From positions 1-64,000 of the forward strand of contig NZ_QPHL01000016.1 in NCBI RefSeq assembly GCF_003335675.1: 64,000 nucleotides of DNA, read 5' to 3'. Each line of letters starts with the position of its first letter. Position 1 is the first letter of the stretch. The position numbers and the translations under genes were made by a program. Source of the DNA: Winogradskyella sp. KYW1333. Its GTDB lineage: Bacteria; Bacteroidota; Bacteroidia; Flavobacteriales; Flavobacteriaceae. This document shows, one piece after another, positions 18,927-60,826 of this stretch. The notes beneath the pieces were generated by a model that worked only from the letters and a program-made list of their open reading frames with translations, was not told the origin of the DNA and made no database searches.

Positions 18927-19766
18927 ATGAAAACCTTCGATAAATTTAAGTTTTTTTTGCTGAAAACTCCTTTAGCGAAATTTTTTCGAGGAATAGAATT
19001 TGCTATTGTGTCAATTAAGCTTAGTCATAAAAGACCCCTTCGATTAATACCAAATACTTTAATTTGTATTTCACCATATAAAACCGGAACAACATTCTTA
19101 TCGAGTACATTTGGTTCAGAGGTGTCTAAGCACGAACCACTTCACTATACAACTTATAAAATACTAGATAAAGATTTTAATAAATACTTCCCTAAACGGT
19201 TGAGGTATTTAAATTTAAAATTCGAATGTTCAGGATATTGGAGTGCTTATGTCGATGAATTGGCGACAAATGAAATTGCAAAGAAACTAAATTATTTATG
19301 TGTTTTAAGACCTCCATCTTCATGGATAACATCAGTAATTAATTATTGGAATAGACCTAATATGTCCGCACTAAATTTTTGTGTTTCTTATGATTTATTT
19401 TGGAAAGATAAAATAGGAGTTGACCTAAGACAGTTTGATTTTGAAAATGATACTGAAAAGAATGAAATCATTATAAATAAACTTATAAAGTTTTACTTCG
19501 ATTTCACGAAGAAAACGAGTAGTCTTAACAACATTACCTATATTCGATTAGAGGAAATAGATAAGAGTATTCCACTCATAGAAAAGATTATAAATGAAAA
19601 GGCAGATAAAAAGGACCAGTGGAAACGTGAAAATATAAAAAAGGCTTTCATTTACAGGAATGAATTTATTGATCAAGAGTACACACTGTTAACTAATAAA
19701 CTCATTAAAAAAAGAAAATATACAACCAAAGCAGAGCTTAAAAATCACTTCGTATTAGCAAGTTAA
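18927..19766 (+). CDS. Sulfotransferase family protein
   Basis: 279 aa. The motif ISPYKTGTTFLSSTF (about residues 49-63) matches the 5'-phosphosulfate-binding loop of PAPS-dependent sulfotransferases, and LRPPSSWITSVINYW (about 126-140) fits the 3'-phosphate-binding Arg/Ser region. No signal peptide is present, so it is cytosolic or membrane-peripheral. The codons are AT-rich and it stands alone between long intergenic regions, without PAPS synthesis genes, which suggests horizontal acquisition. It probably sulfates a surface glycan or lipid; the acceptor is not known. Confidence 0.75.
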   Translation: MKTFDKFKFFLLKTPLAKFFRGIEFAIVSIKLSHKRPLRLIPNTLICISPYKTGTTFLSSTFGSEVSKHEPLHYTTYKILDKDFNKYFPKRLRYLNLKFECSGYWSAYVDELATNEIAKKLNYLCVLRPPSSWITSVINYWNRPNMSALNFCVSYDLFWKDKIGVDLRQFDFENDTEKNEIIINKLIKFYFDFTKKTSSLNNITYIRLEEIDKSIPLIEKIINEKADKKDQWKRENIKKAFIYRNEFIDQEYTLLTNKLIKKRKYTTKAELKNHFVLAS

Positions 19767-27849: not shown

Positions 27850-28960
27850 TTATATAGTGTTATTATCTTCTTCTTTTTGTCCCATCATCATAAGATAAGA
27901 TTTTAAAAACGGCTCAATATTACCGTCCATTACAGTATCAATATTACCGGTTTCGTGACCAGATCTGACGTCTTTCACCAATTTATATGGATGCATCACA
28001 TAGTTTCTAATTTGGCTTCCCCATTCAATTTTCATCTTGCCAGCTTCAATATCATCTCTTTGCGCCATTTGTTTCTGTAGTTCAATCTCGTACAACTGAG
28101 ATTTTAACATTTGTAAAGCTCGTGCGCGATTATCGTGTTGAGATCTGGTTTCTGAACACTGAATCTGAATTCCGGTTGGCTTATGCAAAAGTTGAACCTT
28201 TGTTTCAACCTTATTTACATTTTGTCCTCCCGCCCCACTTGAACGAGCTGTTGTAATTTCAATATCAGCTGGATTTATTTCAACCTCAATAGAATCATCA
28301 ACCATAGGATAAACGTATACTGAAGCAAAACTTGTATGACGTTTAGCATTACTATCGAAAGGGGAAATTCTTACCAAGCGATGAACTCCATTTTCTCCTT
28401 TTAACCAACCAAAAGCGTAGTCGCCTTCTATTTCCAATGTTACTGTTTTTATACCAGCAACATCTCCTTCTTGATGGTTTAATTCTTTTATTTTATATCC
28501 ATTTTTCTCTGCATACATCAAGTACATACGCATTAACATACTGGCCCAGTCACAGCTTTCCGTCCCACCTGCGCCTGCTGTAATTTGCAAAACCGCACTA
28601 AGACTATCACCTTCTTCTGAAAGCATGTTTTTAAATTCGAGCTTTTCAATGGCTTCTATCGCCTTGCTAAATCGAGCTTCAACGTTTTCCATTGGAGCCT
28701 CATCTTCCTTGTAGAATTCGTAAATGACCTCAAGGTCTTCACACAACGTATTTGCAGTTTCAAAATCCTTAACCCAGCTTTTCTTTTCTCTTAAAGAACG
28801 CATCACTTGCTCAGCTATTTTTGAATCGTTCCAAAAATTTGGATCGAAGGTTTGTTCTTCCTCGTTGGTAATTTCTATTAACTTAGCATCTAAGTCAAAG
28901 ATATTGCCTTAGCTTAGCTAGGCGCGTATTTAGATCTTTAATGTGATCTGATGTTATCAT
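27850..28960 (-). CDS. prfB: Peptide chain release factor 2 (programmed +1 frameshift)
   Basis: ATG 28960 opens a 21-codon leader frame ([14 protein letters not shown]...) that ends at TGA 28897-28895. After a +1 shift on CTT-TGA-C, translation continues in the frame used by the rest, giving about 369 aa, the usual RF2 size. Key motifs: the SPF tripeptide for UAA/UGA in [11 protein letters not shown] and GGQ in [14 protein letters not shown] simple ORF call would begin at an internal Met near 28806 and miss about 50 residues. RF2 terminates at UAA and UGA, and the in-frame UGA makes its level self-adjusting. Confidence 0.96.
28894..28914 (-). promoter_or_regulatory. prfB programmed +1 frameshift site
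   Basis: On the minus strand the slip codon CTT is at 28900-28898 and the UGA at 28897-28895, followed by C. Upstream is only AAGG plus a spacer, a weaker Shine-Dalgarno-like element than the AGGGGG of E. coli. Confidence 0.9.
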
Positions 28961-29127: not shown

Positions 29128-30225
29128 ATGTATTACCATATAAAAAACAAAATTATAAAGCCTTTTAATTCAATTAAAAAGAATTTAATTATCTACAATT
29201 CAAAAAAAAATTGGATTATTTTTTTAAAAAACTTAATAGCTCTGACAAAAGCAAAAAAATTGTCAAATGGAAATAAAATAAAAGCAATAAGATTCTACAA
29301 TTTTTATGGTATTAAATTAAAAAACACATACGCTCATCAATATTATACATCAATAACAGGACAATTTTATGAAAATTATATACCCGATGATATATTTCAC
29401 TCTGTAATTTTACCTAAATTTAATAATTCAGTACAATGGCCGGCATTGTTGGATAAAAATTTATATGATAGATTGTTTGAAAACTTTTCACAACCAAAAT
29501 ATATCATTAAAAATATTAATGGATATTTTTATTCAAATAATCAATTAATAAGTCTTAATCAGGCAATAAGTATATTAAATAATCAAAAAGAAGAGCTTAT
29601 AATAAAGCCGAGTATCAGGTCTGGAGGTGGTAAAATGATTAATTTTTTTAAAGTAAAAAAGTCTACTACAAACTATAAAAATTTAAAAATTAATGATCTT
29701 TTTGAATTATACAAAAAAGACTTTATAATTCAAGAAATATTAGATCAATGTAAAATATTAAAGGAATTAAATCCTACTTCTTTAAATACTTTAAGAGTTC
29801 TTTCTTTTTTTCGTAACAATGATGTGGTTATTCTATCTACAGTTTTAAGAATGGGAGGTAAAGACTCTAGAATTGATAATTATGGTAAAGGAGGATCGAT
29901 TTGTGGTGTGGAAGACACGGGTTATCTGAAATCTAATAGCTACAAAGAGAATGGAGAAATAACAAATACATCACCATCAGGCTTAAAATTAGATGGAATT
30001 TTAATACCAAATTTTCCTAAAGTTACGAATATGGTAAAAGCACTCCATTCTAAAATACCCTATTTTAAAATTGTATCTTGGGATATAGCACTAGATATCA
30101 ATGACGCTCCTGTTTTTATTGAATATAACACCTATGCACAAGGTATTGACATTCATCAGATTACTAATGGACCTCTTTTTGGAAAATTTCAAGATGAAAT
30201 ACTTAGAAGTATATTTTTAAACTAA
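29128..30225 (+). CDS. Sugar-transfer-associated ATP-grasp protein
   Basis: 365 aa. The central part is an ATP-grasp fold: IIKPSIRSGGGKMINFF (ATP-binding loop), DFIIQEILDQCK (adenine hinge), LRMGGKDSRIDNYGKGGS and a metal-binding PVFIEYNTYAQGIDIHQI with acidic ligands. It matches the ATPgrasp_ST type found in capsule and exopolysaccharide clusters, which are thought to ligate a carboxylate to an amine or similar. The coding region is very AT-rich and lysine/asparagine-heavy, unlike its neighbours. It starts an accessory block that continues to 36836. Confidence 0.82.
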   Translation: MYYHIKNKIIKPFNSIKKNLIIYNSKKNWIIFLKNLIALTKAKKLSNGNKIKAIRFYNFYGIKLKNTYAHQYYTSITGQFYENYIPDDIFHSVILPKFNNSVQWPALLDKNLYDRLFENFSQPKYIIKNINGYFYSNNQLISLNQAISILNNQKEELIIKPSIRSGGGKMINFFKVKKSTTNYKNLKINDLFELYKKDFIIQEILDQCKILKELNPTSLNTLRVLSFFRNNDVVILSTVLRMGGKDSRIDNYGKGGSICGVEDTGYLKSNSYKENGEITNTSPSGLKLDGILIPNFPKVTNMVKALHSKIPYFKIVSWDIALDINDAPVFIEYNTYAQGIDIHQITNGPLFGKFQDEILRSIFLN

Positions 30226-30266
30226 AAATAGTTTTACAGATTAAATCATATTATAAATTAACTATT

Positions 30267-32666
30267 ATGAAAAATGTTCTTATTCTTCTCTTCATAGTTT
30301 CGGATTTAGTGAATGCTCAAATTTTAAACAAAAAGAATTTACAAGCATTCGATGGCTATTTTGATTTTTATTATGAAGAAAGTACGGATAAGATTTATTT
30401 AAAAGTTGAAAATTTAAATAAAGAATTTCTCTATGTAAATTCTCTTGCCTCTGGTATTGGTAGCAATGACATAGGGTTAGATCGTGGTCAACTAGGTAAT
30501 GAGCGACTGGTTTATTTTCAAAAAGCCGGCCATAAATTGTTACTGATTCAACCAAATTTAAAGTATCGTGCCAACACTGAGAATGAGTTAGAACGGAAAA
30601 GTATTGAACAAGCTTTTGCCAAATCTGTCTTGTTTGGTTTTAAAATACTTTCCGATACTGATGGTTATATTGTTGATTTTACACCATTTCTAATGCAGGA
30701 TACCCATGGTGTTATAAACAGATTAAAAAGTAAAAAGGAAGGTAATTTTAAGTTAGATAAGACGAGAAGTGCTATAGAATTGAATACTACCAAAGCCTTT
30801 CCTGAAAATGTGGAATTTGAAGCTCTGATAACCTATACGGGGCAACCAATAGGGAAAAACCTGAAAACTGTAACACCTACGCCTTCAATTGTTTCTGTTA
30901 TTCAACACCATTCATTTATTAAGTTACCAGATAATAACTATAAGCCAAGGGCTTTTGACACAAGAAGTGGAGCCATATCAATTTCTTATATGGATTATGC
31001 AACACCTATTCAAGAAAATATCAAAAAGCGCTTTATTATTCGTCATAGGTTAGAGAAGAAATTTCCAGATTTGGCAAAAAGTGAAGCGAAAGAGCCAATT
31101 GTTTATTATTTAGATCCAGGAACACCAGAGCCTATTAGGTCCGCGCTTTTAGAAGGCGGTAGATGGTGGAATGAAGCATTTGAATTAGCAGGCTTTAAAA
31201 ATGCTTTTCGAGTGAAGATGTTGCCTGAAGGCGCTGATCCAATGGATTGTAGATACAATGTTATACAGTGGGTACATAGGAGTACCAGAGGCTGGAGTTA
31301 TGGGGCAAGTGTAGTTGATCCTCGTACAGGCGAGATTATAAAAGGTCATGTTAGCTTAGGAAGTTTGCGTATTCGTCAAGATTTTATGATCGCCCAGGCT
31401 TTAATGAATAATCCGTATGCTCTAAGTGATGATAATTATGAACCAATGTTAGAATTAGCATTGGCAAGAATACGACAATTGAGTGCTCATGAAATTGGAC
31501 ATACCCTAGGGTTTACTCATAATTTTGCCTCGAGCACTAATGATAGGGCTTCTGTAATGGATTATCCACACCCAAATGTTGTTGTAAAGCACAATATTAT
31601 TGATTTTAGCCATGCTTATGATAAAGGGATAGGAGAGTGGGATAAAATAACGACTGCTTATAGTTATTCTGAATTTGATAAAACAATAAATGAAACTGAG
31701 GCTTTGAATGATATTTTAGAAAAAGCCAAGAATGATGGTTTACGTTTTATCTCCGATAGCGATGCGCGAGCTATTGGTGGGGCTCATGCATTTGCCCATT
31801 TATGGGATAATGGTAAATTCCCACATCAAGAGCTATCAGAAGTGATGAAAGTGCGGGAATTAGCAATACGTAATTTTTCTAGTAACAATATTAAAAGTTT
31901 TGAGCCATATTCTGTTTTAGAAGATGTGTTTGTTCCTTTATATTTTTATCACAGATATCAAGTTGAAGCGGCGACGAAAGTTATTGGTGGATTAGATTAT
32001 AATTATGCTGTGAAAAGCGATGGGCAATTCACTACAAAAAGTGTTGATAAAAAATTACAAGAACAGACTTTAAATGCTATAATTAATACTTTAAGAGTTG
32101 AAACGCTTGCCATTCCTAAGAATAAACTTTCTATGTTTCCGCCGAGAGCATATGGTTTTAATCGAACACGTGAATCGTTTCAAAGTCAAACTGGAGTGGC
32201 ATTTGATCCATTTAGCGCAGTAAATACTGCAAGTGATATGACTTTGAAATTACTTTTACATCCAGAACGCGCAAATAGGCTAGTTATTCAAAATAGTTTA
32301 GATGAAAATCAACTCTCATTACACAATGTTTTGAATGCGTTAATTCAATCTACATTTGGTATCAAACATGAGGACAGTTATTTTTCTGAAGTGCAGCACC
32401 AAATAAACATTAATGTGTTGAAATACATTATGAATCTAGCAGTGAATAATAACTCATTTTTTCAGGTTCAAGCTAAATCTAATGAAGTGATTAATAATCT
32501 CAGTTCGTTTCTTAATGACAAGAAAAAGCTTGTTCCTTATGCTAATCAATATTTGAAATTGATTATTGAATTTAAATCACATCCAGAAAAGTTCAAAATA
32601 ATACCTTCACCGAAAATACCAGACGGTTCACCCATTGGAAGTGGTATTTGTACTTATAATCATTAG
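30267..32666 (+). CDS. Secreted zinc-dependent metalloprotease (DUF5117/DUF4953 type)
   Basis: 799 aa. A signal peptide (about residues 1-17, ending DLVNA) is followed by an N-terminal domain (DUF5117-like) and a metzincin-type catalytic core HEIGHTLGFTHNF (about residues 406-418) with three zinc-binding histidines and the catalytic Glu. The C-terminal helical region (DUF4953-like) is long. Its relatives are common in Bacteroidota and are presumably periplasmic or surface proteases. It is flanked on both sides by glycan-type genes, which may be coincidental. Base composition is closer to the core genome than its neighbours. Confidence 0.88.
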   Translation: MKNVLILLFIVSDLVNAQILNKKNLQAFDGYFDFYYEESTDKIYLKVENLNKEFLYVNSLASGIGSNDIGLDRGQLGNERLVYFQKAGHKLLLIQPNLKYRANTENELERKSIEQAFAKSVLFGFKILSDTDGYIVDFTPFLMQDTHGVINRLKSKKEGNFKLDKTRSAIELNTTKAFPENVEFEALITYTGQPIGKNLKTVTPTPSIVSVIQHHSFIKLPDNNYKPRAFDTRSGAISISYMDYATPIQENIKKRFIIRHRLEKKFPDLAKSEAKEPIVYYLDPGTPEPIRSALLEGGRWWNEAFELAGFKNAFRVKMLPEGADPMDCRYNVIQWVHRSTRGWSYGASVVDPRTGEIIKGHVSLGSLRIRQDFMIAQALMNNPYALSDDNYEPMLELALARIRQLSAHEIGHTLGFTHNFASSTNDRASVMDYPHPNVVVKHNIIDFSHAYDKGIGEWDKITTAYSYSEFDKTINETEALNDILEKAKNDGLRFISDSDARAIGGAHAFAHLWDNGKFPHQELSEVMKVRELAIRNFSSNNIKSFEPYSVLEDVFVPLYFYHRYQVEAATKVIGGLDYNYAVKSDGQFTTKSVDKKLQEQTLNAIINTLRVETLAIPKNKLSMFPPRAYGFNRTRESFQSQTGVAFDPFSAVNTASDMTLKLLLHPERANRLVIQNSLDENQLSLHNVLNALIQSTFGIKHEDSYFSEVQHQININVLKYIMNLAVNNNSFFQVQAKSNEVINNLSSFLNDKKKLVPYANQYLKLIIEFKSHPEKFKIIPSPKIPDGSPIGSGICTYNH

Positions 32667-32760
32667 TTTTATCCTTTCTGTTATTTATAATTCTTATTTC
32701 TCCAATTAATTTTTTACAACACAAAACTAAATCAAACAAAAAGTAAATTTATACCATATT

Positions 32761-33414
32761 TTGAAAATTATTTATAGAAATTTCATAAAGGATGTTTTAG
32801 ATTTCATTCTTGCTTTTATGTGTTTAATGATTTTATTACCACTAATACTTTTATTAATTATTATTCTTCTATTAGATAATAATGGAAAAGTATTTTTTAT
32901 TCAAAAAAGACCGGGTAAAAATGAAAAAATATTTAAAATAATAAAATTCAAAACTATGACAGACAAAAAAGACTCAAAAGGGCTTTTGTTGCCAAATAGC
33001 CATAGAGTTACTCGAGTTGGATTAATTTTAAGAAAATATTCATTAGATGAAATACCTCAGTTAATTAATGTTCTCAAGCGGGATATGAGTTTTGTTGGCC
33101 CCAGACCTTTAAGAGTAAGATATCTTCCTTTTTACACCTTAGAAGAATCTATAAGACACAGTGTAAAGCCTGGCATTACGGGATTAGCTCAGATTTCAGG
33201 TAGAAATAGTTTAGATTGGGATGATAAATTTTCATTAGATATTCAATATGTTAATAATATATCATTTAAGAATGATTTAATTATAATTCTTAAAACAATT
33301 AATAAAATCTTTTCTAATCAAGATGTTGATTTTGAGACTTCGAATGTCATAGATGATTTAGACGTATCAAGACGAAATTGTAAAAAGCATAATTCAAAAG
33401 TTGATGAGATTTAA
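32761..33414 (+). CDS. PglC-type phosphoglycosyl transferase (sugar transferase)
   Basis: 217 aa. One N-terminal hydrophobic hairpin (about residues 12-37), then the bacterial sugar transferase core with KVFFIQKRPGKNEKIFKIIKF, KFKTMTD, RKYSLDEIPQLINVL (catalytic Asp-Glu) and SFVGPRPL. It is a small monotopic phosphoglycosyl transferase that starts glycan assembly by placing a phospho-sugar on undecaprenyl phosphate. The start is TTG. The last 30 or so residues (polar, VIDDLDVS) extend beyond the usual core. It overlaps the following ATP-grasp gene by 11 nt. It is the only priming enzyme in the block. Confidence 0.88.
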   Translation: MKIIYRNFIKDVLDFILAFMCLMILLPLILLLIIILLLDNNGKVFFIQKRPGKNEKIFKIIKFKTMTDKKDSKGLLLPNSHRVTRVGLILRKYSLDEIPQLINVLKRDMSFVGPRPLRVRYLPFYTLEESIRHSVKPGITGLAQISGRNSLDWDDKFSLDIQYVNNISFKNDLIIILKTINKIFSNQDVDFETSNVIDDLDVSRRNCKKHNSKVDEI

Positions 33415-34432
33415 TATATTAATTACTTCTGCAGGACGGCGTAACTACCTAATCAATTATTTCAAAGTTGCATTAAAAGATAGGGGAATGATAATTGTTG
33501 CCGATTCAAATAAATTTGCCACAGCATTTTCAGATGCTGATGTGTCTATTTGTGTATCAAGCTTCAATCAACAAGAATATATTGAAGATATTGTAGAAAT
33601 CATCAAAAAATATTCGGTAAAAGTAATTATATCATTGAATGATTATGAGCTATTGGTTTTATCTAAAAACAAAAAATATCTTGAAAGTTTAGGAACTAAA
33701 GTTATTGTACCAACTGAAGAAATAGTTTCTATCGTTTTTGATAAATGGAAATGTCATAACTTTATTAATAGAATTGGTCTTAATTCACCAAAGTCTTATC
33801 TTAAGTTAGAAGATGCACTGAATGATATAGATAACAATATTTTAAACTTCCCAGTAGTAATCAAACCTACGATTGGAAGTGGATCTGAAGGTGTTGAGTT
33901 AGCTGAAACAGTTGAAGAGTTAAAACTTTTTTATAAAATAAAATGCATTCAAATAAAAAAAGCTAATTCAATTAATGATAGTACAGCTTTATCCTTTAAA
34001 AATAATGTTTTAATCCAAGAAAAAGTTGAGGGTAAAGAATTTGGGCTAGACATAGTTAATAATTTTAATTCTAAATTTTTCGCCTGTTTTGCTAGAGAAA
34101 AACTATCTATGCGAAATGGCGAGACTGATATGGCAATTTCTGTAATTGATAAGTCACTAATTGATGTTGGGAAACAAATATCTAAAAACTTGATGCATCT
34201 TGGTCTTGCTGATGTTGATGTAATAGTTCAAGATAAAAAGATTTTTATTTTAGATATAAACTTGAGATTTGGAGGAGGTTACCCATTTTCGCATTTAGCA
34301 GGGGCTAATATTACAGCCGTTTATGTTGACTGGATTATAGATAATTATGATTTGGATACTAAAAAACACATTAATTATAAATCTGGAATTATTCATTCAA
34401 AATATGATAAACTCACCAGGATTTTTGTTTAA
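33404..34432 (+). CDS. ATP-grasp domain protein, carbamoyl-phosphate-synthase-like
   Basis: 342 aa from ATG 33404; the TTG at 33401 is less likely. The N-terminus NILITSAGRRNYLINYFK has the pre-ATP-grasp Rossmann fold with TSAGRR, the middle holds VVIKPTIGSGSEGVELAE and VLIQEKVEGKEFGLDIV, and the end has IFILDINLRFGGGYPFSHLAGAN with the metal-binding Asp/Asn. This is the CarB-like ATP-grasp group frequent in polysaccharide loci. Such enzymes form amide or similar bonds through acyl phosphates. Start overlaps the sugar transferase, end overlaps the next ligase (TAATG), so the three form a coupled unit. Confidence 0.85.
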   Translation: MRFNILITSAGRRNYLINYFKVALKDRGMIIVADSNKFATAFSDADVSICVSSFNQQEYIEDIVEIIKKYSVKVIISLNDYELLVLSKNKKYLESLGTKVIVPTEEIVSIVFDKWKCHNFINRIGLNSPKSYLKLEDALNDIDNNILNFPVVIKPTIGSGSEGVELAETVEELKLFYKIKCIQIKKANSINDSTALSFKNNVLIQEKVEGKEFGLDIVNNFNSKFFACFAREKLSMRNGETDMAISVIDKSLIDVGKQISKNLMHLGLADVDVIVQDKKIFILDINLRFGGGYPFSHLAGANITAVYVDWIIDNYDLDTKKHINYKSGIIHSKYDKLTRIFV

Positions 34433-35604
34433 TGACTAATTGCATGAAATCAAAGTCAAAATCAATTTCTGTGCTTATTCCTGATGGAGAATCATCTTTT
34501 TTACAGATTGTAGTTAATTGTTTAAGCTTAGTTAAAAATATTAAGATTTTTGTAATCTCGAGCAATAAATCAGATTTCATGAAGTATTCTTTTTTTGTAG
34601 AGGAATATATTTTTTTCACTGATTCTAGTGATGAGGAATGGCTTAACAGAATAAATCATGAGGTTGAAAAAAATAATATAGATATTATTATCCCAATTTT
34701 TCAAAATGGATTTAAAAGAATAATAAAACATCAAAAGTTATTAAAAAATAAGGATAAACTTTGTGTTTTGCCAGCATTAAGTGATTTCAATACAGCTAAT
34801 GATAAGGGGCTTTTATATTATCACATGAAAGCCAATAGTATACCATGTCCTAATAGCCAAGTAGTTAAACAAAATAAATTACCGAATTTTTCTGAAATTG
34901 AATACCCAGTAATTGTCAAACCAGTAGAAAACTTAGGCGATGGAAGGGGGATACAGTTATTTCAAGATGGAGAAGGTTTGAAAAACTATTATAATTGTTC
35001 TAAACCTGCTGGAAAAACTATTATCCAAGAGTTTATTCGTGGTTACGATATAGGATGTAACGTGCTATGTCTAAATGGAGATATTTTGACTTATACTATT
35101 CAAAAAGGCAATCTATTTAGTAATAAAAAGTTTTCTGCGCAAATAGGTCTAGATATTGTTGAAGAAGATCTAATTATTGATGCGACCAGAAAACTAATGA
35201 AAAGTATTAATTGGTCTGGAATTGCAAATATAGATTTGATGTTTGATGAGAAGGATTCTAAATTTAAGATACTTGAGATAAATCCTAGATTTTGGATGAC
35301 AACTGAGGCATCTGCATTAGCTGGAATTAACTTTCCATATTTGTATTGCTTGACTAGTCTTAAAATAGAATTTGAAAACCCTAAAGTCAAGTTTATTTCA
35401 TTTCTTACTTTACATGGTTTATTAAAAAAAATTAAAAATAATCCATTATTTGTCTTTAACATAAACTATATAATGAACAATACCGCTTTTAGATTTGTTT
35501 TAAAAGATCCAATTGCGAATTTTTATAAATTAATTTGTTATCGATTATTAAAATATTGTAAAAATTATTTTAAGGATAGTAACCAAAATAAGAGAGTTAA
35601 ATAA
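34432..35604 (+). CDS. ATP-grasp ligase-like protein, paralogue 1
   Basis: 390 aa (or 386 from the second Met at 34444). N-terminus ISVLIPDGESSFLQIVVNCL with a Rossmann fold, ATP-grasp segments VIVKPVENLGDGRGIQLF and IIQEFIRGYDIGCNVL, and metal ligands in KILEINPRFWMTTEASALAG. It is colinear with the next gene over its full length, so the two are tandem paralogues. It overlaps the previous gene by one base. A C-terminal extension follows the catalytic domain (about residues 315-390) with no recognised fold. Substrate unknown. Confidence 0.82.
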   Translation: MTNCMKSKSKSISVLIPDGESSFLQIVVNCLSLVKNIKIFVISSNKSDFMKYSFFVEEYIFFTDSSDEEWLNRINHEVEKNNIDIIIPIFQNGFKRIIKHQKLLKNKDKLCVLPALSDFNTANDKGLLYYHMKANSIPCPNSQVVKQNKLPNFSEIEYPVIVKPVENLGDGRGIQLFQDGEGLKNYYNCSKPAGKTIIQEFIRGYDIGCNVLCLNGDILTYTIQKGNLFSNKKFSAQIGLDIVEEDLIIDATRKLMKSINWSGIANIDLMFDEKDSKFKILEINPRFWMTTEASALAGINFPYLYCLTSLKIEFENPKVKFISFLTLHGLLKKIKNNPLFVFNINYIMNNTAFRFVLKDPIANFYKLICYRLLKYCKNYFKDSNQNKRVK

Positions 35605-35696
35605 AAGTTTTTCTGTATTTAGATTGTTAATTAGCAAGCTCTTAGTAATTCAATAAAATTATTATTCGAAATGTTGTATACTTAATTTGTTCTTAC

Positions 35697-36836
35697 ATGT
35701 ATTTGAATTTCAATAAAAAAATTACAGTATTGATTCCAGATGGGGAAAGCCCTAGATTATTATCTGTTATTAATTGTTTGTCACTTGTTGAAAATGTAGA
35801 AGTATATGTTATGTCATCAAGACGGCATTATTATATGAAATATTCTAGATACATCAAGAGCTATGTTTTTTATCCAGATTCAAACGATAGAGATTGGGTT
35901 AATAACATTAATTACGAAGTTGAGAAGAATGATATTGATGTTATCATGCCTGTATTTGAAGTTGGATTTAACAGAATTATTAAAAACAAGAACAAACTAA
36001 AAGAAAAAGATAAACTTTGCTCTTTGCCAACCTTTCCAAATTTTGAATCAGCAAGAAATAAGGATTCGTTATATCGTCATCTTAAAGCTAATGATTTGCC
36101 CTGTCCTCAAAGTGTAATCCTTGAACCAAATAAGCCAATAGAATTAGCGGAATTGACATTTCCCGTTGTTGCTAAGCCAGTTGAGGGTTTTGGAGCGGGT
36201 CAAGGAATAGAAGTATTAAGTGAAAATAAAGATATATTTGAATATATTAAATCACACACATTTAGTTGTAATACTATTTTTCAAAACTTTATTGAAGGTT
36301 ATGATATTTGTTGTAATGTTCTTTGTAAAAATGGAGATATAATAGCATACTCAATTCAGAAAGCGCATTTCAGCGAGAAAGGAAAATTAACGCCTCAATT
36401 AAGTTTTTCTTTTGTTGAAGAAGAAGCATTACTCCAAATAATAAAAAAATTAATGAAAAGCCTTAACTGGTCAGGTGTAGCAAATATTGATTGTAGGTAT
36501 GACATTGATATTAGCACATTTAAGATTATTGAAATAAACACGAGATTCTGGGAAAATATTGAAGCATCCGCAATGGCTGGTGTAAACTTTCCTTATCTAT
36601 ATTGTTTATCAACTTTAAATCATAATTTTAAAATTCAAAAGGCTGATAAAATAACTTATTTAAACCTAAAAGGTTTGATTAAACGTTTGAAAACGAACCC
36701 ATTTTTTATCATTAACACTAGTTACATTTGGAAAAATACGCCTATTAGTTTTGCTCTAAGAGATCCTATGCCTATGCTTTATAAATTTGTTTGGCGCACA
36801 AAGAACATATTAATTCAAAAGATATTTAGAAAGTAG
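35697..36836 (+). CDS. ATP-grasp ligase-like protein, paralogue 2
   Basis: 379 aa with the same plan as its neighbour: ITVLIPDGESPRLLSVINCL, VVAKPVEGFGAGQGIEVL, IFQNFIEGYDICCNVLCKNG, KIIEINTRFWENIEASAMAG and a matching C-terminal tail. The key ATP and metal ligands are kept, so both copies look active. It is separated from paralogue 1 by 92 nt, allowing a separate promoter. The pair differs in many surface positions, which fits substrate divergence after duplication. Its specific role in the glycan block is not known. Confidence 0.82.
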   Translation: MYLNFNKKITVLIPDGESPRLLSVINCLSLVENVEVYVMSSRRHYYMKYSRYIKSYVFYPDSNDRDWVNNINYEVEKNDIDVIMPVFEVGFNRIIKNKNKLKEKDKLCSLPTFPNFESARNKDSLYRHLKANDLPCPQSVILEPNKPIELAELTFPVVAKPVEGFGAGQGIEVLSENKDIFEYIKSHTFSCNTIFQNFIEGYDICCNVLCKNGDIIAYSIQKAHFSEKGKLTPQLSFSFVEEEALLQIIKKLMKSLNWSGVANIDCRYDIDISTFKIIEINTRFWENIEASAMAGVNFPYLYCLSTLNHNFKIQKADKITYLNLKGLIKRLKTNPFFIINTSYIWKNTPISFALRDPMPMLYKFVWRTKNILIQKIFRK

Positions 36837-37046: not shown

Positions 37047-38072
37047 ATGACTATAGATTTACGTAGTGATACAGTTACCAAACCTACTAAAGGCATGTTA
37101 AATGCCATGATAAATGCAGAAGTTGGAGATGATGTATATAAAGAGGATCCTACGATTAATGCCTTGGAGGAAAAGCTAGCAAATATGTTTGGGATGGAGA
37201 AGGCTCTGTTTTTCCCTACTGGAAGTATGGCTAATCAGGCAGCACTTAAATTACATACAAACCCAGGAGAACAAGTCATATGTGATAAATATGCCCATAT
37301 ATATAATTATGAAGGTGGAGGGGCATCATTTAACAGTGGTATATCATGTAAATTAATAGACGGGGATAGAGGAATGTTTACAGCTCAACAAGCAGAAGCA
37401 TCTATAAACCCACCGGATTTTTATCATAGCCCGTTAACCTCGTTAATTGAGGTAGAAAACACAACCAATAAGGGTGGTGGTGCATGTTGGGATTTTGAAG
37501 AACTTAAGAAAATTAAGGCAGTAGCTCATAAACATAATCTTGGATATCACTTAGATGGTGCAAGACTTTGGAATGCGTTAGTAGCTTTAAATCATAAACC
37601 AAAACAATATGGTGAATTATTCGATACCATTTCAGTTTGTCTGAGCAAAGGTCTCGGTTGTCCTATTGGATCTGTTTTAATAGGAAATAAAGAGTTGATG
37701 CAACATGCCATTAGAATAAGAAAAATATTTGGTGGTGGTATGCGCCAAGTTGGCTATTTGGCGGCAGCAGGATTATATGCTCTAGATAACAACATTGAGC
37801 GTCTCAGGAAAGACCATATAAAAGCCAAAGAAATAGGTGAAGTTTTAGAATCATTAACCTTTGTTAAAAAGGTCGAACCTATTGAAACAAATATCATAAT
37901 TTTTGAACTAAATGATTCTGTAAGCGAAAAAGACTTTTTAATTACTTTAACTGAAAATAATATTCATATAATAGGTATGGGTAGCAACAAATTAAGGATG
38001 GTTACGCATTTAGATTATACAGATGACATGCACGATTCTCATTTAAAAATTTTAAAGAGTCTAAAATTTTAG
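37047..38072 (+). CDS. ltaE: Low-specificity L-threonine aldolase (PLP-dependent)
   Basis: 341 aa fold-type I PLP enzyme. N-terminus TIDLRSDTVTKPTKGMLNAM, GDDVYKEDPTINALEEKLA, DGARLWNALVAL (PLP-binding Asp) and the Schiff-base lysine in SVCLSKGLGCPIGSVL. It cleaves L-threonine/allo-threonine to glycine and acetaldehyde. No operon partner; it follows a gap of about 210 bp after the ATP-grasp block and ends convergent to ybaB. Confidence 0.94.
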   Translation: MTIDLRSDTVTKPTKGMLNAMINAEVGDDVYKEDPTINALEEKLANMFGMEKALFFPTGSMANQAALKLHTNPGEQVICDKYAHIYNYEGGGASFNSGISCKLIDGDRGMFTAQQAEASINPPDFYHSPLTSLIEVENTTNKGGGACWDFEELKKIKAVAHKHNLGYHLDGARLWNALVALNHKPKQYGELFDTISVCLSKGLGCPIGSVLIGNKELMQHAIRIRKIFGGGMRQVGYLAAAGLYALDNNIERLRKDHIKAKEIGEVLESLTFVKKVEPIETNIIIFELNDSVSEKDFLITLTENNIHIIGMGSNKLRMVTHLDYTDDMHDSHLKILKSLKF

Positions 38073-45677: not shown

Positions 45678-48116
45678 ATGTCGTTTTCTTTGAAGAAATT
45701 TCTTCCGCATCTTTTTGTTTTACTAGGATTCGTTATTTTGTCGTTGGCTTATTTTAGCCCAGTATTGGAGGGTAAAAAGATCTTCCAAAGCGATATCATG
45801 CATTATATAGGCATGGCCCAACAGCAAAAAGAATTTGCAAAATCAACAGGAGAGGAAACCTACTGGACCAATAGTGCGTTTGGAGGAATGCCGACTTATC
45901 AATTAGGTGCAAAATACCCACATAACTATATAAAGAAACTAGACTTAACCTTACGCTTTTTGCCAAGACCTGCAGATTACCTTTTTTTGTATTTTATTGG
46001 TTTTTATATTTTATTATTAAGCTTGAAGGTTGAATTTAAATTGGCTGCTTTTGGTGCCTTAGCCTTTGGGTTTTCAACGTATATGATAATTATTCTTGGT
46101 GTAGGCCATAATTCTAAAGCACATGCTATTGCGTACATACCAATGGTTTTGGCAGGTATAATATTAACTTTTAGAAATAGGTATGTTTTAGGATTTCTAT
46201 TAACCACAATAGCACTAGGATTAGAAATTGTAGCCAATCATTTTCAAATGACCTACTACCTGTTATTGTTAGTCTTAGTAATAGGAATAACATATCTCAT
46301 TGATGCATATAGAAAAAAACTAGTGCCACACTTTTTTAAATCTGTTGGGATTTTAATTGTAGCTACCATAATTGCTGTTGGTTTAAATGCTACCAACTTT
46401 TTGGCCACTCAAGAATATGTTAAGGAAAGTACTCGCGGTAAAAGCGAACTGACTATTAATCCTGATGGTTCACCAAAGGAGGTCTCAACAGGTTTGTCTA
46501 ACGAATACATAACAGAATACAGCTATGGGATTTGGGAAACCTTTAATCTTTACATTCCTAAATTTATGGGTGGTGGAAATTCGGAAGATGTCGGAAAGGA
46601 AAGCGCAACTTACAAAGCTTATGTAAATCTTGGTGCATCGCCTATTGAAGCATTAGAAGCATCTAGAGAAGCACCTATGTATTGGGGAGATCAGCCAATA
46701 GTTGAAGCACCAGCTTACGTTGGCGCTGTAATTATTTTCTTATTTGTTCTTGGTCTGTTTTTAGTGAAAGGAAGATTAAAATGGTGGTTAGTTGGTGGTA
46801 CTATTTTTTCATTACTATTGTCCTACGGTAAGAATTTAGATTTCCTTACTAATCTCTTTATTGAATATGTGCCGTTGTACAATAAATTTAGGGCAGTGAG
46901 TTCAGTACAGGTCATTCTTGAATTATGTGTACCTATATTAGGTGTTTTTGCATTAGTACGTTTGTTTAATGACTTTCAAAATAATGAAGATAAATTAAGG
47001 TATTTAAAATACACAGTAATTATTACGGCAGGTCTTTGTGTTGTGTTTCTACTATTTAAATCCTCTCTTTTTGATTTTGAAGGATTACGCGATGACAGAT
47101 ATGCTCAGGCTTATGGTCAGCACTTCGTAGACGCATTAATTGAAGATAGAAAAGCATTGTTTACTACTGATACCCTAAGAACGCTGATTTTCGTTTTGCT
47201 GTCCGCAGGAACCGTATTTCTTTTTTTAAAGGAAAAGCTCTCAGAAAAAAAGGTTGTAATTGTGTTTGTAATTTTAGTTCTATTTGATTTGGTTTCGGTT
47301 GATCGAGAATACGTAAATAGTAGTAATTTTAAATCTGCACGAATTGTTGATATGCCATATCAGGCAAACACGGCAGATAAGGATATATTGAGGGATAAAA
47401 GTCATTTTAGAGTCTTGGACATGTCGTCCCAAGGTCAGAGTCAACCTGGAAAGGCTGCCTATTTCCATAATTCTTTATTGGGTTACCATGCCGCTAAACT
47501 TGGACGTTATAATGAACTACTAGATTTTCATGTTTATAGAAACAACATTAATGTCTTAAACATGCTTAATACAAAATATATTATCATTGAAGAGCAAGGC
47601 CAAGTACTGCCTTATACAAATAAAGAAACCAATGGTAATGCTTGGTTTATTAGGGAATTGGAAATTGTTGAAACTGCTAATGAAGAAATAAAAGCTCTCG
47701 ATAGTTTAGATACAAAATTGAAGGCAGTAATTCAAAAATCACTATTAAGTTCGAATATTTTAAAAGAAAGTTATTCACTAGATTCAATTGCCTCGATAGA
47801 GTTAATAGAATTTAAACCTAACTACTTAAAGTATGAAACCAACAATAGTAATAGCGCTTTTGCTGTATTTTCAGAGATATATTACCAGCCAGGTTGGATT
47901 TCGTTAATAGACGGTCAAGAAGTCCCACATCAACGAGTAAATTATGTTTTAAGAGGGATGTCAATACCAAAAGGTACTCATATAATCGAATTTAAATTTG
48001 AGCCTCAAGTGGTTAAAATAGGTAGTAAAATTGCATTGGCCAGTTCTGTAGTTTTAGGTATTTTGTTATTCTTAGGACTCTTCTTTGAGTTTAAACGTAA
48101 AAAAATTGATACTTAG
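45678..48116 (+). CDS. YfhO family membrane protein
   Basis: 812 aa with about 12 membrane helices in the first two-thirds (LPHLFVLLGFVILSLAYFS and following) and a soluble C-terminal beta domain before a last helix. The signature FQSDIMHYIGMAQQQKEF and TNSAFGGMPTYQLG in the first extracytoplasmic loop is characteristic of Bacteroidota YfhO. The family is a GT-C-fold group linked to lipoteichoic acid glycosylation in Bacillus; here it presumably transfers a lipid-linked sugar. It starts a transcript with a glycosyltransferase (9 nt on) and a flippase. Confidence 0.9.
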   Translation: MSFSLKKFLPHLFVLLGFVILSLAYFSPVLEGKKIFQSDIMHYIGMAQQQKEFAKSTGEETYWTNSAFGGMPTYQLGAKYPHNYIKKLDLTLRFLPRPADYLFLYFIGFYILLLSLKVEFKLAAFGALAFGFSTYMIIILGVGHNSKAHAIAYIPMVLAGIILTFRNRYVLGFLLTTIALGLEIVANHFQMTYYLLLLVLVIGITYLIDAYRKKLVPHFFKSVGILIVATIIAVGLNATNFLATQEYVKESTRGKSELTINPDGSPKEVSTGLSNEYITEYSYGIWETFNLYIPKFMGGGNSEDVGKESATYKAYVNLGASPIEALEASREAPMYWGDQPIVEAPAYVGAVIIFLFVLGLFLVKGRLKWWLVGGTIFSLLLSYGKNLDFLTNLFIEYVPLYNKFRAVSSVQVILELCVPILGVFALVRLFNDFQNNEDKLRYLKYTVIITAGLCVVFLLFKSSLFDFEGLRDDRYAQAYGQHFVDALIEDRKALFTTDTLRTLIFVLLSAGTVFLFLKEKLSEKKVVIVFVILVLFDLVSVDREYVNSSNFKSARIVDMPYQANTADKDILRDKSHFRVLDMSSQGQSQPGKAAYFHNSLLGYHAAKLGRYNELLDFHVYRNNINVLNMLNTKYIIIEEQGQVLPYTNKETNGNAWFIRELEIVETANEEIKALDSLDTKLKAVIQKSLLSSNILKESYSLDSIASIELIEFKPNYLKYETNNSNSAFAVFSEIYYQPGWISLIDGQEVPHQRVNYVLRGMSIPKGTHIIEFKFEPQVVKIGSKIALASSVVLGILLFLGLFFEFKRKKIDT

Positions 48117-48125
48117 TTTATAGTA

Positions 48126-49415
48126 ATGTCATCAAAGAAAGTCTTAGTGATTACCTATTACTGGCCACCAGCTGGTGGTCCTGGTGTGCAACGCTGGTTA
48201 AAATTCGTAAAGTATTTAGCAGATTTTAATGTAACACCATTTGTTTTTTGTCCTGAAAATCCAAGTTACCCAATAGTTGATGAGACTTTAGTTAATGAAA
48301 TACCAGAGGGTATAAAGATAGTTAAGCGTTCAATTAAAGAACCCTATCGATTTGCTAGTGCATTTTCAAGTAAAAGCACAAAAAACATAAGCTCAGGGAT
48401 AATACCGAAGTCAAAGAAACAATCTGTAATAGAAAAACTATTACTTTTTATAAGAGGCAACTTTTTCATTCCTGATGCACGTAAAAATTGGGTTAAACCA
48501 TCGGTGAAATTTCTTTCAAAGTTTATTACAGAAAATGATATTGATTCTATAATTACCACAGGTCCACCTCATAGTTTGCATTTAATAGGATTAGCTTTAA
48601 AAAACGCAATAGGAGTCAAGTGGATTGCAGATTTTAGAGATCCATGGACAACAATTGGGTATCACAAAGAATTGAAATTAACTTCTATATCTAAGAAAAA
48701 GCATAGAAATCTCGAATCAAGAGTACTGAACAATGCTGACGAGATAATTGTCACTAGTAAAAATACTAAAGCCGAGTTTTCATCTAAAACAAAACAGCCC
48801 ATTACGGTAATTACAAATGGTTATGATACTCATAATGTAATAATTGATATGAAGGATGAAAAGTTTACCTTCTCACATATTGGATCTTTATTATCTGAGA
48901 GAAATCCGCAGGTGTTGTGGGAAGTACTTTCAGAAATCATTTCTGAAAGTGAGGGTTTTGCCGAATACTTTCAATTGAATTTAATTGGAGTTGTCAGCGA
49001 GGAAGTAATTCAATCAATGAGGTACCATCAGCTTGATAAATACATGAATATAATGGGCTATGTTGAACATAAAGAAGCACTGGCTTATCAAATGAAATCT
49101 CAAGTATTATTGTTAATTGAAATAGATTCTGAGGATACAAAATCAATAATACCAGGTAAAGTTTTTGAATATTTGATTTCTGAAACTCCAATTTTAGCCA
49201 TTGGCCCATCTGATTCTGATGTGGAGAAAATAATAATATCAACAAATACTGGGTTTTATTTTACATATAATGACAAGGGTAATCTAAAGACTAAAATTTT
49301 ATCATTATTTGCGGATTATAAGTCTCAGAATATTGAAGTAAATGCAGTTGGCCTAGAACAATATAGCCGTAAATCTTTAACCGAAAAATTGAGCAAAATT
49401 ATTCATAGGGTTTAA
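48126..49415 (+). CDS. Glycosyltransferase (family 4-like)
   Basis: 429 aa. The N-terminal Rossmann domain starts VLVITYYWPPAGGPGVQRWL with the GGPGVQR donor loop, and the C-terminal half contains a GT-B domain with FTFSHIGSLLSERNPQVLW and KVFEYLISETPILAIGP, the E(x7)E-like position. It is a cytosolic GT-B enzyme with retaining chemistry expected. Starts 9 nt after yfhO and is followed by a flippase, so the three may act on one surface glycan. Confidence 0.9.
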   Translation: MSSKKVLVITYYWPPAGGPGVQRWLKFVKYLADFNVTPFVFCPENPSYPIVDETLVNEIPEGIKIVKRSIKEPYRFASAFSSKSTKNISSGIIPKSKKQSVIEKLLLFIRGNFFIPDARKNWVKPSVKFLSKFITENDIDSIITTGPPHSLHLIGLALKNAIGVKWIADFRDPWTTIGYHKELKLTSISKKKHRNLESRVLNNADEIIVTSKNTKAEFSSKTKQPITVITNGYDTHNVIIDMKDEKFTFSHIGSLLSERNPQVLWEVLSEIISESEGFAEYFQLNLIGVVSEEVIQSMRYHQLDKYMNIMGYVEHKEALAYQMKSQVLLLIEIDSEDTKSIIPGKVFEYLISETPILAIGPSDSDVEKIIISTNTGFYFTYNDKGNLKTKILSLFADYKSQNIEVNAVGLEQYSRKSLTEKLSKIIHRV

Positions 49416-49463
49416 TAATGAAGCTTTTATCATAAATAAAATTAAGTTGTAAATTGCCTAGCA

Positions 49464-50921
49464 ATGGGCATCATTTTAAAACAATCTTTCAAAAATACCA
49501 TTAGTACTTATCTAGGTTTTGGTATAGGTGCTATTAATACGCTTTTTCTTTATACCAATCTTTTAACTGATCAATATTATGGATTAGTCGCATTTTTGTT
49601 TTCTACAGCCAATATTATGATGCCATTTATGGCGTTTGGCGTTCATAATGCGATAATAAAATATTATTCTTCTTTTAAAACAAAAAATAGTATTAATGGA
49701 TTCCTAACATTGATGCTGTTCCTTCCATTAATCTTTATTATTCCAGTTGGGACTATAGGTTATTTCTCATATGAAACTATAGGTTCCTTTCTTTCTAGAG
49801 AAAATTCAATTGTAGAAAATTATACATGGTATATTTTTATTTTGGCCATTGCTATGGCCTATTTTGAGATCTTTTTTGCGTGGACAAAAGTGCAAATGCA
49901 AACTGTTTTTGGAAATATAATGAAAGAAGTTTTCCATAGAGTAGCCATAATGATTTTGTTATTCGCAGTTTATCTTAATTGGCTTAGCATAGATGAGTTT
50001 ATTATTGGATTGGTAGGAGTTTACGTTTTAAGAATGCTTATAATGAAATTATATGCCTATACTGTTAGATTTCCAAAACTTGTATTTCAATTACCAAATA
50101 ATTTATCATCTATATTTAAGTATGCTTTATTAATGATAATTGCTGGCTCTGTTGCAATGTTGATTTTGGATATAGACAAGTTTATGATAGGCATACTAAT
50201 AGAAGATATTGAACAAGTAGCATATTACAGTGTAGCAATATTTATAGCTACTGTTATAGCCGTGCCACAGCGAGCTATGCATCAAATTATGATGCCGTTA
50301 ACAGCGAAGTATTTAAATGATAATGATTTAACTGCGCTTGAAGATTTGTATAAACGTAGTTCCATGACTCTATTGGTAGTAAGTGGTTTTATTTTTTTAC
50401 TAATAGTTTTAAATATTAATCAGCTTTATCTTATCCTACCAAAAGAATTTACTGGTGGCCTATTTGTTGTTTTTATTGTCAGTCTAGCTAAACTCTATGA
50501 TAACAGTTTAGGAAATAATAATGCCATACTCTTTAATAGCGAATACTATAAGATGGTTCTATATTTTGGTGTTTTTCTTGCGATTACTGCTATAGTATTG
50601 AATATTATTTTTATTCCAAGGTATGGAATTGAAGGTTCTGCACTTGCCACTTTTTTAGCAATTGTATTTTATAATACGGTGAAAATCCTTTTTGTTAAAC
50701 GGAAATTTAATATGCAACCGTTTTCAGCTGAATCGTTGAAAATATGCCTTTTACTAGTAGTTTCGGTTCTAGTTATGTATTTCTGGGACTTTCCGTTTCA
50801 TCCAATTCTTAATATAGCATTAAAATCTACTTTAATTGGGATTTTATACTTTGTGAGTATTTATAAATTAAATGTTTCAGAAGACGTTAATGAGCAAATA
50901 AAAAGATATCTAAAGTTTTAA
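49464..50921 (+). CDS. Polysaccharide flippase (MATE/Wzx-like)
   Basis: 485 aa, 14 hydrophobic helices, in the multidrug/oligosaccharidyl-lipid/polysaccharide exporter superfamily. Start MGIILKQSFKNTISTYLGFGIGAIN is typical of flavobacterial flippases with a lysine after the first helix. It probably moves undecaprenyl-linked repeat units across the inner membrane. It follows the glycosyltransferase by 48 nt; no polymerase is nearby, so the glycan may be short. Confidence 0.88.
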   Translation: MGIILKQSFKNTISTYLGFGIGAINTLFLYTNLLTDQYYGLVAFLFSTANIMMPFMAFGVHNAIIKYYSSFKTKNSINGFLTLMLFLPLIFIIPVGTIGYFSYETIGSFLSRENSIVENYTWYIFILAIAMAYFEIFFAWTKVQMQTVFGNIMKEVFHRVAIMILLFAVYLNWLSIDEFIIGLVGVYVLRMLIMKLYAYTVRFPKLVFQLPNNLSSIFKYALLMIIAGSVAMLILDIDKFMIGILIEDIEQVAYYSVAIFIATVIAVPQRAMHQIMMPLTAKYLNDNDLTALEDLYKRSSMTLLVVSGFIFLLIVLNINQLYLILPKEFTGGLFVVFIVSLAKLYDNSLGNNNAILFNSEYYKMVLYFGVFLAITAIVLNIIFIPRYGIEGSALATFLAIVFYNTVKILFVKRKFNMQPFSAESLKICLLLVVSVLVMYFWDFPFHPILNIALKSTLIGILYFVSIYKLNVSEDVNEQIKRYLKF

Positions 50922-59614: not shown

Positions 59615-59696
59615 GCTTTAAAACTATATTTTAATTTTTAGGACGGATTTATAAAGCCTTTAATCTAATAAATAATTTCGTAATAAATGATGGATA

Positions 59697-59704
59697 TATC
59701 TTTG
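59697..59704 (+). promoter_or_regulatory. -7 box for the glycosyltransferase gene
   Basis: TATCTTTG matches TAnnTTTG and ends 15 nt before the ATG at 59720, which argues for that start over upstream ATGs at 59687. Confidence 0.5.
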
Positions 59705-59719
59705 AAACCTATAGTTATT

Positions 59720-60826
59720 ATGAAATTAGCTTATATCATAAACACTTTAAATGGTACTTCAGGTATTATTAGAATGGTAACTCTACAAGCAAATTATTTT
59801 ATTAGTAATTATGGTTATGATATAGATTTTATATTATTACAACAAAGTCCTAAAGAAATTACTTTTTTTTATGATTTAAATTGCAAGGTTAATCTACATT
59901 TTATTAACAGAAAAAGAAATGGGGTTAAACACACTTTTCAAAAACTTAAACTTTTAAATAAAATACTTAATAAGATAAATCCAACTATAGTGATGCCTGT
60001 GGAGAGTAATTTCTTTAGTCTTTATTTACCTTATTTTACAAATTCAAGATTTAAATATATATATCAACGTCATGATACAAAAGAAAGAAATTTAAAAAGA
60101 CTTAGTGGTAATCTTAAAATAAGCTTTGGTAATACTTTAAAAATATTCTTACTCAATTTAGCAGGCCATAAGTATGACAAATTTGTGATACTTTCAGATG
60201 CACATAGGGCAGATTGGAAAAATCTAAATAATTTAATTGTAATCGAAAATCCATTGACGATTAATGATGACAGAAGAAAGGCTAGATTAGACAAAAAAAT
60301 TGTTTTAGCTATTGGAAGATCAGATCCGATTAAAGGTTTTGATATGTTGTTGAAAAGTTGGAGTATAGTTACTTTAAAATATCCAGATTGGCGACTTAAG
60401 ATAGTTGGTGTTAAAGCGACTGATAATGAGCTTAAAAAACAAATTGATAAGCTTGGAATAAATAACTCTGTTGAAGTTCAAATGCCCACTAAGAATATCG
60501 AAAGTATTTATTTAAATTCATCAATATATGTTTGTAGTTCACGACTAGAGGGTTTTCCACTAATACTTCTAGAGGCCATGTCTTTTGGAATTCCTGTAAT
60601 TTCATTCGATTGTAAATATGGACCTAGTGAAATAATAAGTGATGGTATTGATGGCCTATTGGTCCCTCCAAATGACACTAATGTTCTCGCTACGTCGATT
60701 ATAAGATTAATTGAGGATGATAAACTAAGGTCTGAATTTGGGGATATGGCATATAATAATATTCAAAGGTATTCAAAAGAGAATATAATGTTAAAATGGA
60801 AAGATTTATTCGAATCTATAGTATAA
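59720..60826 (+). CDS. Glycosyltransferase family 4
   Basis: 368 aa from ATG 59720 (MKLAYIINTLNGTSGIIRMV). GT-B fold: N-terminal domain with acceptor region, then IVLAIGRSDPIKGFDMLLKSW and the conserved E(x7)E region SSRLEGFPLILLEAMSFGIP. Retaining sugar transferase using a nucleotide sugar. It is a lone gene between nth and bcp with very AT-rich codons, so it may be an acquired gene. Acceptor and sugar unknown. Confidence 0.88.
   Translation: MKLAYIINTLNGTSGIIRMVTLQANYFISNYGYDIDFILLQQSPKEITFFYDLNCKVNLHFINRKRNGVKHTFQKLKLLNKILNKINPTIVMPVESNFFSLYLPYFTNSRFKYIYQRHDTKERNLKRLSGNLKISFGNTLKIFLLNLAGHKYDKFVILSDAHRADWKNLNNLIVIENPLTINDDRRKARLDKKIVLAIGRSDPIKGFDMLLKSWSIVTLKYPDWRLKIVGVKATDNELKKQIDKLGINNSVEVQMPTKNIESIYLNSSIYVCSSRLEGFPLILLEAMSFGIPVISFDCKYGPSEIISDGIDGLLVPPNDTNVLATSIIRLIEDDKLRSEFGDMAYNNIQRYSKENIMLKWKDLFESIV

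Follow-up and report, generated by a model that had tools for sequence, protein, structure and literature searches.

We analyzed a 64,000-nt stretch of the genome of Winogradskyella sp. KYW1333 (the window; the genome itself is referred to as G000) and focused on the block at positions 29128-36836, in which a gene for a PglC-like monotopic phosphoglycosyl transferase (PGT; 32761..33414, + strand) overlaps a gene for a PylC-like ATP-grasp ligase (33404..34432, +), PylC-like denoting here the PRK12767-type family of the latter gene. This pairing recurs in many other loci, and the main glycan cluster of the genome lacks a PGT of its own. We tentatively interpret the pair as the functional core of the block, a split PglB2-like priming unit in which the ligase would acylate an amino sugar and the PGT would load it onto undecaprenyl phosphate, with the neighboring genes being mainly residents of an accessory slot; as a whole, we place this interpretation close to an even chance. 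The combination of a PGT with an ATP-grasp is a known theme, which is found here in split and displaced form.

The PGT and PylC-like gene pair

The PGT matched the Pfam family Bac_transf (PF02397) at 201.4 bits, and its closest relative among solved chains was PglC (chain 8e37, E = 1.9e-59), with which its SLDE..PQL segment aligns. It keeps 53 of the 53 near-invariant family columns, so that both profile and residues place it in the monotopic PGT family. The frame has no ATG before residue 20, and TTG at 32761 is the likely start codon. The overlap with the ligase gene spans 11 nt (33404-33414), and the ligase gene joins gene 34432 at a TAATG junction; an earlier note on this DNA had described both as parts of a chain with overlaps of 11-29 nt, of which the 29-nt overlap was not seen and depends on the start chosen. 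Scans for sigma-70-type promoters and terminators gave results at chance level. The ligase passed the cut-off of the NCBIfam model NF009404 (PRK12767.1-3; 338.4 bits against 316), whose name, carbamoyl phosphate synthase-like protein, states no tested function, and it also matched ATP-grasp_3 and PF21360 (PylC-like_N, 87.8 bits) in Pfam. Although it shares the N-terminal PF21360 and ATP-grasp profile matches with PylC, the 3-methylornithine-lysine ligase, it scored 48.1 bits against TIGR03909 (cut-off 248.3), which excludes its assignment as PylC itself.

Homologues of the ligase (E <= 1e-40) were present in 32 of 249 family genomes, G000 included, and of the 29 family loci fetched in addition to our own, 23 had a PGT match. 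We further compared 80 named PylC loci, which are the best 80 of 511 and not a random sample; some genomes are represented in this set as well as in that of the unnamed family genomes, which makes the counts overlap. Of the 79 loci used for the count based on open reading frames (L253 left out), 63 had a PGT no more than 2.5 kb from the PylC-like gene, and in 39 it was adjacent on the same strand. By tblastn over all 80 loci, the genes found within 4 kb of PylC encoded PGT (65 loci), DegT aminotransferase (30), PaaK-like (28), FemAB-like (27) and GNAT-like (26) proteins, and pyridoxal phosphate (PLP) amino-acid enzymes (18). A glycosyltransferase (GT) hit was present in 51 of the 62 named loci with full flanks, and DegT in 25 of them. 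In several clusters PGT-PylC precedes DegT(-PglF), either immediately or with one to three genes in between, and the order in Acinetobacter terrestris (L295) is PGT-GNAT-PALP-PylC-DegT-PglF. In the PGT tree (duplicates, rows of >300 aa, <150 bits or aligned over <150 residues left out), 32761 fell within a group of ten rows, the other nine being PylC-linked PGTs without exception (fork 88/68), and in the PylC tree 33404 grouped with G221 and G191 at 92/95. Among the matches listed in a literature search, none dealt with a PGT/ATP-grasp pair in Flavobacteriaceae.

The PLP enzymes tested near PylC are related to diaminopimelate decarboxylase and D-cysteine desulfhydrase, with scores below the cut-offs of those models, a hint that the donors in these relatives may be amino acids. 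The PaaK-like genes are of the AMP-forming ligase type (e.g., L122:11608-12924 and L230:11060-12376); three members were tested, and none matched a Pfam family above its cut-off. A role in supplying the acyl group is possible.

The main glycan cluster and the proposed priming step

The main glycan cluster (G000:C8:211-226 kb) carries TupA-type and ST-type ATP-grasp genes, three GT4-like genes (one run in Pfam), and asparagine synthase-like, DegT aminotransferase, PglF-type dehydratase, Wza-like and flippase-like genes, the last two being named by position or by eye and the flippase-like gene having no accepted family match. The gap between its last GT4 gene and DegT measures 308 bases and holds no PGT frame, and a search of the whole genome gave no PGT match there. 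The distance from PGT to DegT was 257 to 4,882 bases in all 26 other same-genus genomes with both genes on one contig, and is 188 kb for 32761 and 120 kb for a second orphan PGT at 101330 in G000. These 26 were the usable ones of 36 same-genus genomes, those left out having either no PglC-type PGT match at the level of the test (G001, G008, G012, G015, G016, G020, G021, and G026) or PGT and DegT on separate contigs (G009 and G035). Since the main cluster is without a PGT, its priming should come from elsewhere, that is, from 32761, from the second orphan PGT, or from the PGT of another cluster.

In the mechanism we propose, 33404 would use ATP to join a carboxylic acid (an amino acid or hydroxy acid) to an amino group of a UDP-amino sugar, the likeliest acceptor being N4 of UDP-QuiNAc4N produced by the PglF-like dehydratase and DegT/PglE-like aminotransferase of the same genome. 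The PGT would transfer the acylated sugar-1-phosphate to undecaprenyl phosphate, and glycosyltransferases and export would act from elsewhere, most likely from the cluster at C8:211-226 kb, or else from a GT4/flippase-like set at 45678-50921 of the window.

We propose these roles because they are analogous to an exchange in Neisseria, where, in the excerpts available from two papers, PglB carries an acetyltransferase and PglB2 an ATP-grasp (PMC11130364, PMC6959607). The excerpt of the former describes PglB2 as an ATP-grasp/phosphoglycosyl transferase producing GATDH, a glyceramido sugar (PMC11130364), so that, on this description, the earlier note's remark that no described pathway matches its plan no longer applies. 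Like our pair, PglB2 as described there combines a PGT and an ATP-grasp in a dehydratase/aminotransferase amino-sugar pathway, as the alternative to the acetyltransferase form PglB. It is one polypeptide in that account, whereas our pair consists of two overlapping genes (32761-33414 and 33404-34432), and its ATP-grasp part is likened to 33404 by description, not by sequence. The PGT part of such a system is present in 32761, as judged from its PF02397 and PglC matches; a linked 4,6-dehydratase and aminotransferase are not, the PglF- and DegT-like genes lying 188 kb away on the contig.

The bacillosamine pathway of Campylobacter consists of PglC, PglD, PglE, and PglF. Like it, G000 has a PGT that is closest, among solved chains, to PglC, together with DegT- and PglF-like genes; unlike it, G000 has an ATP-grasp instead of or besides PglD, and the genes are split over the contig. 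Judged by coordinates, the interval from PGT to DegT contains a PglD-type acetyltransferase in 6 of 60 relatives (G007, G024, G040, G042, G052, and G055). In 13 of 28 same-genus loci, this interval is occupied by a further PylC-type ATP-grasp encoded on the other strand (confirmed by Pfam on one). Searched with the PglD of G024 at E 1e-8, our genome gave one match, of 94 residues in a 149-residue frame.

The prfB-ltaE interval and its other genes

The block is bordered by conserved backbone genes that we take to be prfB on the left (27850..28806, - strand; 87.5-90.1% identity at the same locus in five relatives) and ltaE, encoding a threonine aldolase-like protein, on the right (37047..38072, +; 72-82% identity at the same locus in six relatives). 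Open reading frames and Pfam searches confirmed the content given in the earlier note, namely four ATP-grasp genes, one PGT, and one metalloprotease, all on one strand. As that note also states, GT, Wzx, and Wzy genes are absent from the block, which is thus no complete Wzx/Wzy-type glycan cluster, such a cluster calling for glycosyltransferases. Besides the pair, the block contains an ATPgrasp_ST (sugar-transfer associated ATP-grasp) gene (29128..30225, +; PF14397 at 137.4 bits, gathering cut-off 31.4), which has three paralogues in the same genome at G000:C8:337-341 kb (42-45% identity) and no solved-structure relative at E 0.1; a gene for a met-zincin metalloprotease (30267..32666, +; DUF4953 at 218 bits, plus DUF5117); and two genes for carbamoyl phosphate synthase (CPS)-like ATP-grasps with ATP-grasp_3/ATPgrasp_Ter matches, AG3 (34432..35604, +) and AG4 (35697..36836, +), which are paralogues at 49% identity. 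ATP-grasps like these two are referred to below as AG-type.

AG4 is the counterpart of an ATP-grasp found near ltaE in 6 of 36 same-genus genomes. The AG4-like gene lies between prfB and ltaE, beside a lipoprotein-like gene, on five of the six contigs and adjoins ltaE on the short contig of the sixth (G023), and none of the six showed a PGT at this place. In one same-genus genome (G035), a counterpart of the met-zincin also lies between prfB and ltaE (about 71% identity), and the protease is probably a resident of the interval and not a part of the pathway. Because AG4 and met-zincin counterparts sit in this interval without a PGT, the block does not look like one pathway island. We also observed that the met-zincin counterpart of G035 (L086:8414-10813) is broken into two reading frames. 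AG4 shares 45-48% identity with the same-genus copies, compared with 72-94% for prfB, ltaE, and the genes to the right, which suggests that AG4 is fast-evolving or was replaced. AG3, AG4, the same-genus copies, G191, and G304 group together in the AG tree (98/97), and this ATP-grasp type thus seems old at the prfB-ltaE locus. Tandem duplication is unsupported as the origin of AG3 and AG4, as AG3 groups with the prfB-ltaE ATP-grasps and is not the sister of AG4.

The prfB-ltaE interval is a recurrent site for the PGT/PylC-like module. Both flanking genes were found in three of the 80 named loci (L230, L235, and L244), of which L230, from the uncultured genome 2-872, has the best PylC of all 80 (59%); the slot of Jejuia pallidilutea (L235) holds GT2-like, second PylC-type, PGT, PylC, and PaaK-like genes with two AG genes, and that of Hyunsoonleella jejuensis (L244) has the order PGT-PylC-AG. 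The earlier note had made its view depend on the genes not always lying inside complete GT clusters elsewhere. Such a setting is usual for the pair, as the 51 of 62 loci with a GT hit indicate, and not universal: the pair occupies three further prfB-ltaE slots, one with a GT hit and two without in the fetched stretch.

Elsewhere in the family, most AG-type genes are found away from PGT and PylC-like genes. Of the 249 family genomes, 13 carry both an AG-type and a PylC-type gene, where 3.2 would be expected (p = 4e-7). A single AG clade accounts for seven of these 13, so shared ancestry explains part of the excess, and a functional tie was retained as a weak one only. Loci, trees, and co-occurrence established no tie of genes 29128, 34432, and 35697 to the pair, and the link of 29128 remains uncertain. 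The best explanation is that the neighboring ATP-grasps and the met-zincin are mainly residents of an accessory slot, a view that belongs to the near-even interpretation given at the outset. A rival account goes further and denies the slot any common pathway, so that only the PGT and the PylC-like ligase would cooperate and the ATPgrasp_ST protein, AG3, AG4, and the met-zincin would have unrelated jobs. We consider this credible, if somewhat short of even. It readily accommodates the PGT-less slots with AG4-like genes (five, and a sixth near ltaE), the diverse neighbors of AG-type genes elsewhere, the met-zincin of G035, the separate positions of AG3 and AG4 in the AG tree, and the slot contents differing among Hyunsoonleella, Jejuia, and the uncultured genome. 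It sits less easily with the AG/PylC co-occurrence (though seven of the 13 cases are in one clade), with the PGT-PylC-AG order repeated in G191/Hyunsoonleella, and with the ATPgrasp_ST matches that 2 of the 80 named loci show near PylC (within 4 kb).

With regard to base composition, five of the six block genes are AT-rich (GC 0.246, 0.257, 0.282, 0.269, and 0.292), which is 1.0 to 2.4 standard deviations (SD) under the mean of 52 window genes (0.324, SD 0.032), and the met-zincin is not (0.341). Genes of the main glycan cluster are likewise AT-rich (GC 0.276-0.334), so composition alone is no proof of acquisition and distribution says more. Acquisition, which the earlier note had suggested for the block from its AT-richness, is likely because a close homologue of 33404 occurs in 1 of 68 genus genomes, namely G000; the sole other genus match at E 1e-25 was in G006 (35% identity).

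Several further observations concern these gene types and the window. A lipoprotein-like protein of 360-420 aa adjoins an AG-type ATP-grasp in 12 loci (L080-L083, L086, L204, L206, L209, L212, L214, L215, and L218; divergent in nine, convergent in three), is absent from the block, and gave no Pfam or NCBIfam match in the one member tested; it could be a substrate or partner of the AG-type ATP-grasp. Divergent AG-type ATP-grasps were also seen at G000:C7:133329-134420 (L075), where the gene abuts one for an HTTM-domain membrane protein, and at G027:C1:475969-477084 (L084). At G000:C8:335-343 kb (L074), three ATPgrasp_ST genes alternate with two genes of ~214 aa; the one of these two that was tested showed a weak resemblance to GNAT proteins, below cut-off. 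A BKACE gene, a PaaK-like gene, and a truncated PglD-like frame are close by. Outside the block, the window contains a GT4 gene (59687-60826) and a sulfotransferase-like gene (18927-19766), the latter recognized by eye and lacking a Pfam match.

Alternative sources of priming and meaning of the pair

The second orphan PglC-type PGT (G000:C8:101330-101890; L015:9289-9891) allows a different account, in which 101330 primes the main cluster and the window pair starts a separate acylated lipid-linked glycan, perhaps extended by the set at 45678-50921. We regard this as possible, while leaning against it. In the PGT tree, 101330 grouped at 100/100 with PGTs of G029, G191, and G035, some of them in or near glycan clusters, including the G029 PGT 1.45 kb from DegT and the G191 PGT C4:378188 near glycan genes; G191 carries both PGT types, as does G000, and 101330 may serve the main cluster. 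The set at 45678-50921, ~9 kb right of the block, comprises a YfhO protein, a GT4 (PF13439), and a Polysacc_synt flippase-type protein (PF01943) in a row, and is a candidate alternative partner for 32761. However, 101330 itself lies ~120 kb from DegT, no glycan cluster was recognized in the surrounding 19 kb, which do include an epimerase-like and a GT4 gene, and the set is also conserved in G027 (L084; 64-77%), whose prfB-ltaE slot has no PGT, so that the set is independent of the window pair. A 184-aa gene (no Pfam match) was seen beside 101330, and a relative recognized by eye adjoins the related PGT in G191 (L196) and G035 (L198).

Both the grouping of 101330 and the nearby set weigh against the interpretation that we favor, and so do several further observations. 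In four same-genus genomes (G012, G016, G020, and G021), DegT was matched, but nowhere did a PglC-type PGT match better than about 1e-33 turn up; G000 is therefore not alone in having a DegT cluster that lacks a small PGT. Three more PGT genes of G000 lie in other glycan clusters (long, C9:193678 and C7:294894; short, C7:323754). No PLP, PaaK-like, or FemAB gene was found beside our pair by reading frames and Pfam. With three PglD queries, a PglD-like gene was located no farther than 4 kb from PylC in 15 of the 80 named loci, on which ground PylC as a strict replacement of PglD was rejected, and three Capnocytophaga loci have the order PGT-PylC-PglD-DegT. The ligase keeps 69 of 76 near-invariant columns, its seven departures being the second most of 28 (seven distant PylC rows left out), and has D at E285 (E285D) in a likely metal motif. 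Predicted structures were too poor for use (mean pLDDT 32.6 for 29128 and 54.1 for 33404).

The seven departures, together with the TTG start and long tree branches, might also indicate a decaying relic whose activity is altered or lost; we consider this quite improbable, given that all frames are intact and that near-invariant columns are kept in the PGT (53/53), AG4 (30/30), and AG3 (28/30). Very improbable is the plan of the earlier note, in which four ligases acting in order build a peptide on a lipid-linked sugar, as the short gaps and common strand of the four ATP-grasp genes might suggest: the set of four ATP-grasps was in no prfB-ltaE locus read, AG4-like genes occur without a PGT at the same slot and AG-type genes mostly without PGT or PylC-like genes elsewhere, and the named loci most often combine a PGT with a single PylC-like gene, a minority of them having a further gene of the PylC-like or AG type. 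What endures of that proposal is an ATP-grasp-decorated, lipid-linked amino sugar, which is the best reading of the pair.

The split priming unit we favor would acquire a broader meaning if a surface-glycan cluster had lost its own PGT and the prfB-ltaE island supplied both a PGT and a tied acyl ligase in trans, as a relocatable priming module. We judge this extension unlikely; were it true, exchange of the island would give the whole polymer a new first, acylated sugar with the main cluster untouched. PRK12767-type ATP-grasps carry an uninformative name (carbamoyl phosphate synthase-like), and their frequent pairing with PglC-like PGTs, together with their place in the PGT-DegT gap that elsewhere holds PglD, gives them a testable function, i.e., attachment of an acyl group, possibly an amino acid, to the priming amino sugar. 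The O-polysaccharide of Flavobacterium psychrophilum has a Qui2NAc4NR residue, according to the excerpt available from PMC6519341, and we infer a link between this residue and ATP-grasp acylation. Such acylation could explain the unusual N-acyl groups on the amino sugars of Flavobacteriaceae surface glycans.

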